Source: Alphaproteobacteria bacterium (GTDB taxonomy: Bacteria > Pseudomonadota > Alphaproteobacteria > Caulobacterales > Hyphomonadaceae). Taken from it: DNA of 64,000 nucleotides. Where the stretch lies: NCBI GenBank assembly GCA_018222605.1, contig JAAEZZ010000008.1:186001-250000 (forward strand). The letters run 5' to 3'. The translations under genes and the position numbers were made by a program. Shown here one piece after another: positions 51,314 through 58,958 of this stretch; positions within the stretch are counted from its first letter, which is position 1, and each line of letters starts with the position of its first letter. Under the pieces are notes generated by a model, which saw only the letters and a program-made list of their open reading frames with translations, had not been told where the DNA came from and did no database searches.

Positions 51314-52777
51314 ATGACATCTTTGCAACCGATAGCCTTTTCCCAAGCCTATGGGATCAGTTCCCAAGCGATGATGAAGGCAAAGGTCTTCGATCCGCTA
51401 TTGAACGCGGATACAAAATTGTTTGTCGATCCGCTTCTTCTTCCCATCAGCAGCGCTGAAGAAATTTCGGATCAAGCCTCTGACTTGTTCCAAGACCACT
51501 TTTCGAATGTCTTCAAGCTTCTTAGCCATTCAAAAAGGACAGATGACGTCGCATGGAAAGGTGCAAAGGCACTTCTCGATTACAAAGAAGTTCCATACAC
51601 ATGCATAGGATACGGATCCTCTTCTATTCGAGGCTCCTCGCTCTCGGAAGAGAAAAAATCCGATATTCTTGAGTTAGCGAAGGAAATTGCCGATCTAGGC
51701 GTTATCGACCCATACTTACTACCGCTTTTGAGTCTTTTGGAACCGGGGATCGGCCCTGACAATATAAGCGACATGGTGACAGGTATCGCCTACCCAGCCA
51801 TATGTGCGTTTACAGAAAATACTTGCAAGGAACTGAAAGTACCTCTCGAGGAATTCTATCTAGATGGCAAGAAATATCAGCTTCCACGAAACTTGGCACA
51901 GAGGGACAAGAACATGCCCGTCCTACTTCTGCCGCTCGACATTCTAAAACACCTTCCCGTCGCAAGCGACTGGAACGATGTTTGTGACATTGCCACTCAA
52001 AACGAAGATTTGCGCAGGCAGGTCAACCAGAGAATCGGACAGATTTTTCGTGATACGGCGTTAACTGAACAAGAAAAAGCTCGGGCGCGCGTTGCAATTT
52101 TTAGAAACAAAGCCGCGCTCGAACTAATCGCGGAAGCGCTCAAATCAAAAAGTCTAAAACCATACGACTTCACACGAGATCCTCACGGTTTTCTGCTATT
52201 GCAAGCGATTTCAGACAGCCTTCCAAAGCAAGTTCCGCTACAAGCAGTTGCAGCTAATCTTAAAACTCCCAAAGACACCGTTGTAGCAATCTTGGATCAG
52301 TTCAAGCTTCTTATTGAAAAGCACGGTTACTGGAAGGAGCTATGGACCGGAGAGCGTTTCAAGAACGAGTCGGCATTGCAGCGAATGCTTTATCTCGTTG
52401 CATATTCATATGCCGAAGCGAATGATTTGGATGTTTCCCCAGAAGTCGATTTGTCCTCTGGACGAATCGACTTCAAATTCAGCAAGGGAGCGGACAAAAT
52501 TATTGTAGAGATCAAGAAATCGTCTAACGGGCACCTGGTGTCCGGCGTCAGATCACAACTGCAATTCTATTGCCAAGCTGAAAATTCAAAACTCGGATAT
52601 TATCTAGTAGCGGACCATTCCGACAAGCAAGACACGTGGCTACAGAAGCTGGTCGACGAAGCCAATGCGGTCCGCAAAGAGACTAAGATAAACATAGAAA
52701 TTTTCGTCATTGATGCCAATAAGCAGTCACCCCCAAGCAAAGGCGGCGGGCGGAAAAAAACTAAGAAAAAGAACTGA
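51314..52777 (+). CDS. Unknown protein with C-terminal PD-(D/E)xK nuclease domain
   Basis: 487 residues, not recognised overall. The C-terminal domain has E352 in KNESALQRM, D386 in SSGRIDFKF, E399-I-K401 in IIVEIKKSS and a helix SQLQFYCQAE, the E-D-ExK pattern of restriction-endonuclease-like nucleases. The N-terminal 340 residues are mostly helical and may sense or contact a target. A Lys-rich tail ends the protein. AT-rich with unusual codon use; it begins 32 bases after uvrB behind GGAGG. A defence role is plausible but unproven. Confidence 0.7.
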   Translation: MTSLQPIAFSQAYGISSQAMMKAKVFDPLLNADTKLFVDPLLLPISSAEEISDQASDLFQDHFSNVFKLLSHSKRTDDVAWKGAKALLDYKEVPYTCIGYGSSSIRGSSLSEEKKSDILELAKEIADLGVIDPYLLPLLSLLEPGIGPDNISDMVTGIAYPAICAFTENTCKELKVPLEEFYLDGKKYQLPRNLAQRDKNMPVLLLPLDILKHLPVASDWNDVCDIATQNEDLRRQVNQRIGQIFRDTALTEQEKARARVAIFRNKAALELIAEALKSKSLKPYDFTRDPHGFLLLQAISDSLPKQVPLQAVAANLKTPKDTVVAILDQFKLLIEKHGYWKELWTGERFKNESALQRMLYLVAYSYAEANDLDVSPEVDLSSGRIDFKFSKGADKIIVEIKKSSNGHLVSGVRSQLQFYCQAENSKLGYYLVADHSDKQDTWLQKLVDEANAVRKETKINIEIFVIDANKQSPPSKGGGRKKTKKKN

Positions 52778-54300: not shown

Positions 54301-54484
54301 GGGGCAAGCCTCTCATGGCGGCGTCTCCGTCGGATTGGGCCGGTGGCTTTCCGCCGATTTGGGGCCATGGGACATGCGCGGGGCTGTTTGGGCCGGATAT
54401 GGGCCTGTTTCGGGTCTCTTTTGGGATAGTTTCGGGGCTGGGTTTAGAGCTGTTTTCGTGCCCTCCCGCCCGGAATTCCACAGC

Positions 54485-54512
54485 TTGCCACAAAACTGTG
54501 AAATTCTACTCT
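54485..54512 (+). promoter_or_regulatory. Promoter-like sequence for the structured RNA
   Basis: TTGCCA and TACTCT with 16 bases between; transcription would start near 54519. Confidence 0.4.
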
Positions 54513-54518
54513 CAGGGG

Positions 54519-55077
54519 ACTCGACTCTTAGGGTTAATTGGGGAATCATTTCGGTTAGCCAACGAAATCCGGGTGGAAGCTCACCCACTTAAGGAGCGTC
54601 GGCCAGTACATCGCCCTCGCCAGAGGGCCAGGGTCAGGGGCAACGCCGTGAGAGCGGCCGCGCGAAAGACCTAGGCAGCAAGGCGGGATAAAGAGCAGGC
54701 GATGTCTTCGATGAGGGGAGCTAGACCCCGATGCGAAGGGCTGTATGTCGTGACCGGAGCGCGATCCGAAACACGACACCAAAGGAAAATCCGCAAGGAT
54801 TTCCAGCGGTTAGGTCAGGCCTGAACGCAGATGCCTTGTGCAAATGGTGTGTAGGTTTGGCCGTAGGGAGATGGCCCGGGCGCTTGCCCCGTTCGCAGAG
54901 CAGTGGCAGCGACCAGCCGGATCCTGACATGGGGAAAAGAAAAGGCCCGCTTTCGCGAGCCTGATCTGGAACCCGGTGTCGATCGAAGACCGGCAACGAG
55001 TGCATGCACAGTGTCTCGGTAGTCTGATTCGAAGCACCAGAGAAGGTGTGGGCCTCACCGCTCACACCTTCTTTTTT
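54519..55077 (+). ncRNA. Candidate long structured non-coding RNA
   Basis: No credible reading frame crosses this stretch. From left to right it can form ATTTCGGTT/AACGAAAT (54548-54568), GGGTG/CACCC (54571-54586), GCCCTC-GCCA-GAGGGC (54613-54628), GGGG/CCCC inside TTCG/CGAA (54707-54737), TGTCGTG/CACGACA enclosing CGGA/TCCG (54746-54778), AAATCC-GCAA-GGATTT with a GNRA loop (54787-54802) and AGGC.CGC-TTTC-GCG.GCCT (54943-54962). It ends in a strong terminator. I find none of the RNase P, tmRNA, SRP or 6S signatures. Boundaries rest on the promoter-like start and the terminator. Confidence 0.55.
55041..55077 (+). terminator. Strong intrinsic terminator
   Basis: Perfect 10-bp stem AGAAGGTGTG / CACACCTTCT followed by TTTTTT on plus only. 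No protein gene lies before it on plus, so it must end the structured RNA. Confidence 0.9.
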
Positions 55078-56757: not shown

Positions 56758-56828
56758 AACGATCAACGCATTGGCCACCACCCCGATTTGAGTGTAACTT
56801 CTCCTTAACCATCAACCGGGGGAAGGTG

Positions 56829-58958
56829 ATGAGGCATATCTGGTACACTTGTATAGGTCTGGCGGTTGCGATGTCGCTGTCAGGCTGTGCCCTTTCGGAT
56901 CAGACAGAAACCTCCAACACGCAGGCCGCAATGGAGCCGGTTGCCACCGAGGACGTCATCGTGTTCGAAGAAGACGATGAAGAGTATATTGTCGGTGCCC
57001 CCCCGGAAGAACCGCCCCGCGGCGGTTCCGGCATAATCTCCTTGCCCGAAGATATTTATGCGCCCGGTCCTGGAGGCGCACCCGGCAAGCAATCGCCCCG
57101 TCCTGACAAGGACGACCCACCCTCACCGGTTGCTGCGCCAGCCCCCGCGCCAGCCCCGCAAATCCCCGATGATATTCCCCCGGAATATGCGGAGATACTG
57201 GAACAGTATAAAGATGACCCTGAAACACAGGCCGTTATTCTGGCCATGCTGATGGGCCAGGATGACGGACTGGAAGCGACCGCTGCCGCCGGACCGACCT
57301 TCGACAAGGCCTGCCAGGCCGAAACCACGCCCCGCCGCACTCTGCTGATCACCTGCCAGGATCTGATCACAGGCGAGCTGTCGCAGGCAACCCATCCAAT
57401 CGGGACCGACCTCAAGGCCTCACTGGAAATGGTGGCAAGAGATCTGGCGGGCCCTGGCGCAGATATCGGCCGCGTGGAAGTGCCGCTTTGCTTCTGGAGT
57501 GAGACCATTCAGTTCACAGATAGCCTTTACTTCGGCATGTGCCCTGAATGGGACTATCGCTATTCCGTCCTCGCCGAAGAGGCGGCAGAGGATTTTGATA
57601 CCGGGCGCATCGCCCATCACGCGCCGCAGCAAATGGTTCTGGAGCAGCCCTACTTTCTGGAAGTTGCCATACAGCCCCTGCAAAAGGACAGCGACCAGGA
57701 CAGCGTCGACACATCACTGACGGCCGCCATGGGCACGGGCCTTGCACCGGGCAGTACGGAAGGCGCTCTGGACCTCTCGTTCGATACGATCCGTGCCGGG
57801 AGCGTGATGTCTGTCTCCGCAAGCGGGGCCGGTTATGAGATCATCGCCACAACGCCCGCCGAACAGCCCGTGCTGGCTGGTTCCCCCACGGTCTGGCAGT
57901 GGCAGGTCACGCCGCATCAGGTGGGCTCGCCGCTGCTGATCTTCACGGTCTCTGAAACCGTCAAGGTGAATGACCGAAGCCTCGCGCGTACGGTCAAAAC
58001 CATTCCGCTCAACATCACTGTCACGCGGCTGGATGATTTGCTGGCAGACAGCGGCCCGCCCGATGTTTCGGCAGGCATCGCCACCCGCTCCCCTGCCCCG
58101 GAGACGCCACTGAGCACAACAGAAGCGGCAAGCACTGCCTCCATCGCCAGCACCCTCGCACCGGACACCCTCGACCCGCAGGAGGGTGCGGGCCTGATAC
58201 ATGCATCTACAGCATCTGGGCCGGATACGGACATTCCCGGCTGCACCTGGGTGATCGGCCCCGATCCTGACCGCCAGGCCATGGTGCTCAGCAATCTGGC
58301 CTATTCCCCGCCGGTCAGCCGCCTCGCCGTTACGCATGAGGATGGCGCGCGGATGACAGAGGCACTCAGCGCCGTCGGCTTCTCAGTGCTACAATGCGAG
58401 GATCTTGGCCAGCGCCAGACAGTGCGTGCGCTCAGCATGCTGGGCCGAATGGCCAAGGCGCGAACCGATATGGGCGCGCATCCTGTCACTTTCTTCTATT
58501 ATTCCGGTCATGGCGTGAACATTGAAGGCACGAATTTCATCCTGCCGACCGACATTCCCGGTGCATCCCCGGATGATATTCGCGACATGGGCGTCAGCTT
58601 TGAACAGATCTTCAACCGCGTCTCGTCCACGGTCGCGCCAACCTCATTCGTCGTGTTTGATGCATGCCGCACCGTGATGGATGATCAGAGCCGCGGCCTG
58701 ATGCGCGCCTACAGCCCGGTCGGCTGGGCGTCAGGCGTATTCCAGGCTTTTGCGACTGAGCCCGGCAAGACCGCCGCTGATGATGGCGTCTATTCAGAGG
58801 AACTCGCCAGCAATCTCAGTAGCCTGCCAGACCCGGCCAATGTCGTGTTCAAGCGCGTACAGGATGCCGTCGCCGCACGGACAGGCCAGAAACAGCGCCC
58901 AGTCTATACAGACGGCACAACGGGCGGGGATTTCTACTTCAAACAGGCCAGTGAATAG
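56829..58958 (+). CDS. Caspase-domain (metacaspase-like) lipoprotein
   Basis: 709 residues. Lipoprotein signal with lipobox LSGC, lipidation at Cys20. An acidic stretch and a Pro/Ala linker (to about 115) precede a large beta-rich region of unknown fold with cysteines (CQAETTPRRTLLITCQDL, CFWSETIQF), then a C-terminal caspase domain with H561 in FYYSGHG and C613 in VFDACRT. The catalytic pair is intact. Such domains cleave after basic or acidic residues; here at the envelope. GGGGGA lies before the ATG. Target unknown. Confidence 0.85.
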   Translation: MRHIWYTCIGLAVAMSLSGCALSDQTETSNTQAAMEPVATEDVIVFEEDDEEYIVGAPPEEPPRGGSGIISLPEDIYAPGPGGAPGKQSPRPDKDDPPSPVAAPAPAPAPQIPDDIPPEYAEILEQYKDDPETQAVILAMLMGQDDGLEATAAAGPTFDKACQAETTPRRTLLITCQDLITGELSQATHPIGTDLKASLEMVARDLAGPGADIGRVEVPLCFWSETIQFTDSLYFGMCPEWDYRYSVLAEEAAEDFDTGRIAHHAPQQMVLEQPYFLEVAIQPLQKDSDQDSVDTSLTAAMGTGLAPGSTEGALDLSFDTIRAGSVMSVSASGAGYEIIATTPAEQPVLAGSPTVWQWQVTPHQVGSPLLIFTVSETVKVNDRSLARTVKTIPLNITVTRLDDLLADSGPPDVSAGIATRSPAPETPLSTTEAASTASIASTLAPDTLDPQEGAGLIHASTASGPDTDIPGCTWVIGPDPDRQAMVLSNLAYSPPVSRLAVTHEDGARMTEALSAVGFSVLQCEDLGQRQTVRALSMLGRMAKARTDMGAHPVTFFYYSGHGVNIEGTNFILPTDIPGASPDDIRDMGVSFEQIFNRVSSTVAPTSFVVFDACRTVMDDQSRGLMRAYSPVGWASGVFQAFATEPGKTAADDGVYSEELASNLSSLPDPANVVFKRVQDAVAARTGQKQRPVYTDGTTGGDFYFKQASE

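Follow-up and report, generated by a model that had tools for sequence, protein, structure and literature searches.

The plus-strand segment 54515-55077 of the 64,000-nucleotide stretch of Hyphomonadaceae DNA analyzed here (contig JAAEZZ010000008.1; hereafter the window) carries every computable mark of a genuine non-coding RNA gene. The gene spans ~563 nt from its inferred start to the end of a T-run and was recognized by its fold, its relatives in other genomes, and covariation. We hold it to be very probable that the segment is a free-standing gene whose product is a large structured RNA, read from the plus strand, equipped with its own terminator, and most likely acting in trans. A first-pass annotation based on the letters of the window had proposed a large structured non-coding RNA at this position, and this proposal is supported by abundant compensatory changes, conserved relatives, and a search of Rfam that gave no match.

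The plus strand of 54485-55077 is predicted to fold with an energy of -244.8 kcal/mol (z = -4.23), and none of 100 dinucleotide shuffles folded as well; the minus strand folds less well (z = -2.70), yet better than all of its 100 shuffles. Because the minus strand also beats its shuffles, the assignment to the plus strand is based on terminator conservation and covariation and not on energy alone. A protein-coding reading of 54485-55077 was dropped, since none of the seven ORFs tested is conserved: each is open without a net frameshift in just 1-6 of 28 sequences, the window copy counted, in agreement with the first-pass view that the segment contains no credible reading frame.

Consensus folding of 28 sequences with RNAalifold gave two hairpins near the 5' end of the RNA. 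The first (54522-54548, CGACTC..GGAATC) reads CUCGACUCA..UGAGAUCG in most relatives; the second (54549-54567, UUUCGGU..AACGAAA) consists of seven pairs, three of which are disrupted in 7-9 of the 28 Hyphomonas sequences, and by eye is weaker in others. Further along is a central multibranch domain (54608-54705), the closing helix of which (54608-54615 with 54698-54705) changes on both sides at six of eight pairs with 98.8% of cells paired. A hairpin with a GNRA loop (54645-54658; loop 54650-54653) changes on both sides at all five stem pairs (93.8% of cells paired). Its loop is GAGA in Hyphomonas, GAAA in part of Henriciella, and GCAA in genome G049; the loop type is kept while the letters change, as would be expected of a loop that makes a tertiary contact. 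The two-part hairpin that follows (54706-54738), with the 7-nt loop AGCUAGA (54719-54725), changes on both sides at seven of eight pairs, with just 86.7% and 77.2% of cells paired, and a covariation-supported hairpin at 54747-54777, changed on both sides at five of six outer pairs with 98.4% of cells paired, holds a pseudoknot in its apical loop. The earlier count of at least seven strong stems, one of them GNRA-capped, was borne out, the cap being the GAGA loop of 54645-54658. The folded part is succeeded by a variable middle (54785-54930), where insertions differ between clades, and a conserved 3' block (54978-55040).

The pseudoknot (54740-54760), a feature overlooked in the first pass, consists of 3 bp between 54740-54742 (GCY) and 54758-54760 (RGC) and is indicated by covariation: the column pair 54742-54758 ranks second of 1099 complementary covarying pairs and forms a stack with a pair that all 28 sequences have. 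It was proposed from 28 Hyphomonas sequences, and the 13 sequences from other genera, which played no part in finding it, all pair, with A-U and C-G replacing G-C in two of them. In total, all three positions are paired in 32 of 32 sequences (13 from other genera), with both-side changes at two positions.

Compensatory changes in relatives, which the first-pass annotation had named as a check, are abundant. The whole model, including the pseudoknot, shows changes on both sides at 30 of 39 pairs in 32 diverse sequences, with 94.3% of cells paired, a share favoured by the fact that the 39-pair structure was drawn from alignments overlapping the test alignment; none of 500 shuffles equalled the 30 pairs and the best slid control had 15. 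Among the 28 Hyphomonas sequences, both sides change at 19 of 40 pairs in the central domain and at 10 of 21 pairs in the 3' domain. In a tree-aware test of our own, in the style of R-scape, in which substitutions are reshuffled along the tree, 11 of 44 pairs in the central domain passed at E <= 0.05 with 44 sequences (0 in six slid controls), and 8 of 141 pairs passed with 28 full-length sequences (at most 1 in any slid control). Just two pairs remain in a strict covariation test over all column pairs, both inside the structure. Of the top 60 complementary covarying pairs, 12 fall in the RNAalifold structure and 48 outside; the pseudoknot pair was the one taken into the model, and most of the others outside lack stacking and look like shared ancestry.

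At its 3' end, the gene has an intrinsic terminator with a T-run on the plus strand (55041-55077; stem 55041-55072). Ten outer pairs of the stem are present in 28 of 28 Hyphomonas sequences, and of 11 outer pairs seven show changes on both sides; when the tree is taken into account, one terminator pair passes (E 0.019) and another comes near (E 0.12). The first-pass annotation had described a perfect terminator on the plus strand only. The plus-strand terminator stands, being conserved in relatives, whereas its exclusiveness was not reproduced by a simple terminator scan, which listed three sites on the minus strand, no excess over the 2.4 found in shuffles. The same scan missed the plus-strand terminator, apparently because the loop exceeds the length that the scan permits.

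The promoter-like start noted in the first pass also fared unevenly, as a scan with the sigma-70 consensus found no promoter at 54485-55077, whereas by eye the plus-strand sequence CTTGCC-17-TACTCT at 54484-54512, which the scan missed, fits. From this candidate promoter, which would place the start near 54515-54520 and give an RNA of ~560 nt, we infer that transcription starts near 54515. A dyad, CCACAG-N12-CTGTGA (54478-54501), could be an operator. A similar dyad (YCACAG-N11-13-CTGTGR) lies upstream of 32 of 44 RNA copies, a count in which the right half was permitted to read CTGTG, TTGTG, or CTGTC, and the remaining 12 copies have no full dyad. Measured to the CGACTC at the RNA start, its distance is 20-21, 31, or 41-42 bases, with steps of about one helical turn, a spacing compatible with a regulator that acts at the promoter. 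The window's own genome contains six dyad sites, the one upstream of the RNA included, against two for the reversed control. Because 12 copies are without the full dyad and five more sites exist in the genome, the dyad is not specific by itself and we treat it as only a lead.

None of the 4227 families of Rfam 15 matched anywhere in the window at curated cut-offs. A lax scan of the RNA-bearing segment up to E = 10 returned two chance matches only (E 4.6 and 8.7), and when the window copy was compared with nine relatives scanned equally laxly, no match on the RNA recurred; the Infernal search suggested in the first pass thus matches the RNA, in the window or in relatives, to no known class. A ctRNA_p42d match on the other strand of one relative (L049; E = 0.006, below cut-off) was seen in one of the nine relatives scanned and was dropped. 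The first pass had also reported that signatures of RNase P, tmRNA, SRP, and 6S RNAs are absent, and this proved right: RNase P RNA (RF00010), alpha tmRNA (RF01849), 6S RNA (RF00013), and SRP RNA (RF00169) have no match in the window, where ARAGORN likewise found no tmRNA, and all four are located elsewhere in the same genome (RNase P RNA at G000:C15:212305-212675, 321 bits; tmRNA, 255.5 bits).

These results bear on the idea that the RNA is a known class diverged past recognition, for example a paralogue of RNase P RNA or tmRNA or the remnant of a ribozyme. Large size, a GNRA loop, and a pseudoknot are typical of ribozymes, and class A RNase P RNA is itself large with GNRA loops and pseudoknots; the RNA described here has these traits and in two Hyphomonas genomes lies beside rnpB. 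However, it reaches no Rfam cut-off in the window, the lax scans recur on nothing, and the RNase P, tmRNA, 6S, and SRP RNAs are all accounted for elsewhere in the genome, so that we consider such an origin improbable. In the open-access literature, among the matches listed, no report of such an RNA in Hyphomonas or its relatives was found; in the main text of PMC7200025, the RNA terms looked for are not present. The RNA appears to be a new sequence family, of a class absent from Rfam 15.

The conservation in relatives that the first-pass annotation had asked for exists, as homologues are present and conserved, and its suggestion that the RNA may be lineage-specific fits: in the genomes covered, no accepted match falls outside a single bacterial family. 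When 101 genomes were compared by DNA search, 38 gave a match, 37 of them from Hyphomonas, the genus of the marine budding bacterium that the window comes from. A covariance model of the central domain built from 28 sequences (R1) and run with the stricter filters of Infernal, at which some weak matches are lost, gave a match in 34 of the 299 genomes screened from the order, each at a single place and every one from this family (four genera), and in two of 385 genomes across the class, both Hyphomonas. A broader model from 32 sequences (R3) matched 56 of 105 family genomes, in four of 10 genera and with one copy each, and 53 of 398 genomes of the order. A pattern scan gave 14 records, including Hyphomonas beringensis, H. 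pacifica, H. johnsonii, H. jannaschiana, and H. chukchiensis as well as Henriciella mobilis and Henriciella pelagia; the RNAs of H. beringensis (G013) and H. pacifica (G009) are 97% and 94% identical, respectively, to the window copy.

Within Hyphomonas, 36 of 42 genomes have the central domain, or 37 of 42 with genome G037, in which only the 3' end is present at a contig edge. The other five (G002, G003, G015, G024, and G028) have no DNA match and no central-domain match, and the 3' model was never better than E = 0.009 in them; G015 is rated 9% contaminated and the other four 99% complete. Because the RNA was not detected in these five genomes, the genus can live without it. Applied to 19 family genomes without a central-domain match and to genome G306, the 3' model (R2) matched 17 of 20 at E <= 10, with a best value of 0.009. 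We took these weak matches for chance terminators; the four such loci checked (L111, L113, L114, and L117) lack the conserved 3' motifs, with a single CTCGACTC in L117. In six of nine non-Hyphomonas loci, a model of the 3' block and terminator found a downstream same-strand match (E 2e-5 to 5e-4 over 40 kb), with much of the score coming from the terminator, and in the other three (L059, L060, and L062) the 3' block was not found. Two of these, L059 and L060 of genus g8, keep the central domain and by eye have another terminator ~100-150 bases further on. Two matches outside the family were rejected: one in G306 (E = 8e-4) sits within a DNA polymerase III alpha gene, and a DNA match of 32 bases in G091 (E = 8e-4) sits at the junction of two long frames, with models R2 and R3 matching nothing within 3.1 kb around it.

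In the window, the gene lies between genes for an HTH protein and an EEP protein, as the first-pass annotation stated; neither is a fixed partner across neighbourhoods. Among 30 neighbourhoods, one per genome, analyzed with our own simple gene caller and clustering, the clusters near the RNA included uvrB (16), the HTH protein (9), a caspase-like protein (7), and the EEP protein (4, an undercount by at least one because tblastn adds G019). The UvrB and caspase domains in the window are supported by Pfam. By tblastn, the HTH protein is present in 14 of the first 30 loci, and in H. pacifica, where the RNA is 94% identical, it is reduced to a remnant of 41 aa. We rejected the HTH protein as an obligate partner, given its cluster in nine of 30 neighbourhoods and this remnant. 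Because neighbourhoods vary while the RNA stays, the RNA is a single gene that has changed place.

It could be argued that the RNA is instead a long, riboswitch-like regulatory leader of the downstream gene, here the EEP gene, which follows on the same strand ~145 bases away. This arrangement is not general: the EEP gene follows the RNA in just four of 30 neighbourhoods (plus G019 by tblastn), and in 16 of 30 the first downstream gene that the simple gene caller predicts runs in the opposite direction. All 28 aligned Hyphomonas copies retain the terminator, and in two genomes it is RNase P RNA that follows it. We therefore regard a leader function as highly improbable and a free-standing gene as the better reading. 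Because the flanking genes change while the RNA and its terminator stay, action in trans is most likely.

Several neighbouring features deserve mention in their own right. In two Hyphomonas genomes (L090:5284-6318 and L095:5779-6924), the next gene after the RNA, in the same orientation, is that for RNase P RNA; in two Henriciella genomes (L085:5575-5764 and L089:6557-6785), the RNA is immediately preceded by two tRNA genes. A protein of 487 aa encoded between uvrB and the HTH gene in the window (51314-52777) is possibly an orphan defence gene product; it has sub-threshold Pfam matches to Cas4/PD-(D/E)XK nuclease, PADLOC matches to PDC-M36A (2.8e-10) and LmuA (3.1e-06), and no clustered relative among the 30 neighbourhoods. 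The caspase-domain (Peptidase_C14) protein of 710 aa (56826-58958), by eye apparently a lipoprotein, has a weak PADLOC match to 'caspase' (1.9e-09).

To our knowledge, bacterial RNAs longer than 500 nt with conserved structure are few. With a covariation-backed fold over several hundred nt, no fixed neighbouring gene, and its own terminator, the RNA belongs in kind with the few large 'ornate' bacterial RNAs, but the analysis gave no sign that it is related to any of these; the OLE, GOLLD, ROOL, and raiA RNAs, which have Rfam models, gave no Rfam match at cut-off or up to E = 10. RNase P RNA of class A (RF00010) is comparable in being large with a GNRA loop and a pseudoknot and differs in having no match in the window. 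OLE RNA is described in PMC9723947 as ~600 nt long, with a complex fold with conserved stretches and an exact function that is unsettled; the size and conserved stretches are comparable, whereas OLE RNA is found among extremophiles and anaerobes that are Gram-positive, is part of an RNP, and has no Rfam match here. The raiA motif or ModT RNA resembles our RNA as a structured, conserved non-coding RNA and, unlike it, is conserved in phyla including Bacillota according to PMC11706538, again with no Rfam match here. ROOL and GOLLD, as portrayed in PMC12286853, are likewise large, with a poorly conserved linker, some tRNA neighbours, and possible self-complementary contacts; their genes belong to phages and prophages and in many cases sit close to tRNA islands. 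The Hyphomonadaceae RNA, in contrast, is chromosomal, present once per genome, and has no phage or plasmid match. A plan of conserved, variable, and conserved parts and the size are common to OLE, ROOL, GOLLD, and the Hyphomonadaceae RNA; the host range differs.

We also considered that the RNA might be a domesticated ornate RNA of phage or mobile origin, similar to GOLLD or ROOL. Its variable linker is similar to the disordered linkers that PMC12286853 describes for ROOL and GOLLD, a pair of tRNA genes precedes it in two Henriciella loci, and the RNA has changed neighbourhoods; moreover, among 13 neighbouring proteins compared with Pfam, the HTH protein of L014 matches a transposase HTH weakly and below cut-off (E 0.009). 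On the other hand, coding by a phage or prophage was not seen by DNA or by exact-pattern match: a DNA search with the window copy matched none of 50,697 phage and 72,556 plasmid records, viral contigs contained no exact pattern match, and each genome carries one copy. We give this origin little probability.

Two self-complementary elements raise the question of self-association. The 3' block contains a perfect 10-nt palindrome, GUGCAUGCAC (55000-55009, plus strand), which reads GUGCUAGCAC in most Hyphomonas; of the 37 Hyphomonas and G049 loci, 36 have data and every one of these shows it without a mismatch (29 with a TA and 7 with an AT centre), whereas 18 of 19 copies from other genera do not have it. 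The 7-nt loop at 54719-54725 occurs in variants with CUAG, CUCGAG, UCCGGA, UUCGAA, UCUAGA, and ACUAGU, all self-complementary, and in two non-palindromic forms, UGCCAGG (L026) and GCCAGGA (L125); in some copies the segment folded alone gave no such hairpin and the loop was read from the alignment. Intramolecular pairing between these two elements was rejected, as the partners do not covary and the pairing is broken in copies with CAUG or CUCGAG. Separately, six Henriciella loci (L079, L080, L086, L124, L127, and L129) share a 10-nt palindrome, CTCAATTGAG, ~76 bases past the central domain, although chance alone would be expected to give one such palindrome in every ~1000 bases and the six copies are closely related.

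The RNA might form homodimers or larger homo-oligomers through the self-complementary loops 54719-54725 and 55000-55009, as OLE, ROOL, and GOLLD do. That the 3' palindrome remains free of mismatches despite a two-base change in each of the 36 loci with data, that the 7-nt loop changes among six self-complementary forms, and that pairing inside one molecule is broken in CAUG or CUCGAG copies would all be consistent with contacts between molecules. The loop signal is weak and post hoc, as 22% of random 7-nt loops hold a 4-nt palindrome; the loops of L026 and L125 are not palindromic, the hairpin does not form in every copy when the segment is folded alone, and 18 of 19 copies of other genera have no 3' palindrome. 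Because of this chance rate, the two failing variants, and the 18 of 19 copies, we give self-association low weight and consider it unlikely. Similarly tentative, in our estimate, is the broader proposal of a new large RNA confined to the Hyphomonadaceae that self-assembles through self-complementary loops or is catalytic, and that would be a chromosomal machine unrelated to known classes.

Our working hypothesis is the free-standing gene for a trans-acting RNA. Transcription would begin on the plus strand at the gene's own start and would end at its conserved terminator. The transcript would fold into the central multibranch domain with its GNRA loop, the two-part hairpin with its conserved 7-nt loop, and the hairpin locked by the pseudoknot, followed by the variable linker and the conserved 3' block, and as a stable folded RNA it would most likely act in trans, alone or with proteins encoded elsewhere. 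Several large structured RNAs of bacteria are still without a settled function. For the RNA described here, the structure model with its pseudoknot is well supported, the named records of hosts include isolated strains (Hyphomonas beringensis, H. pacifica, H. johnsonii, H. jannaschiana, Henriciella mobilis, and Henriciella pelagia), and there are relatives in which the RNA was not detected; together these make deletion, pull-down, and structure work straightforward. Because it is kept as one copy per genome in many related bacteria, the RNA probably has a job that is as yet undescribed, and its family-wide yet patchy presence points to a function that is useful and dispensable.
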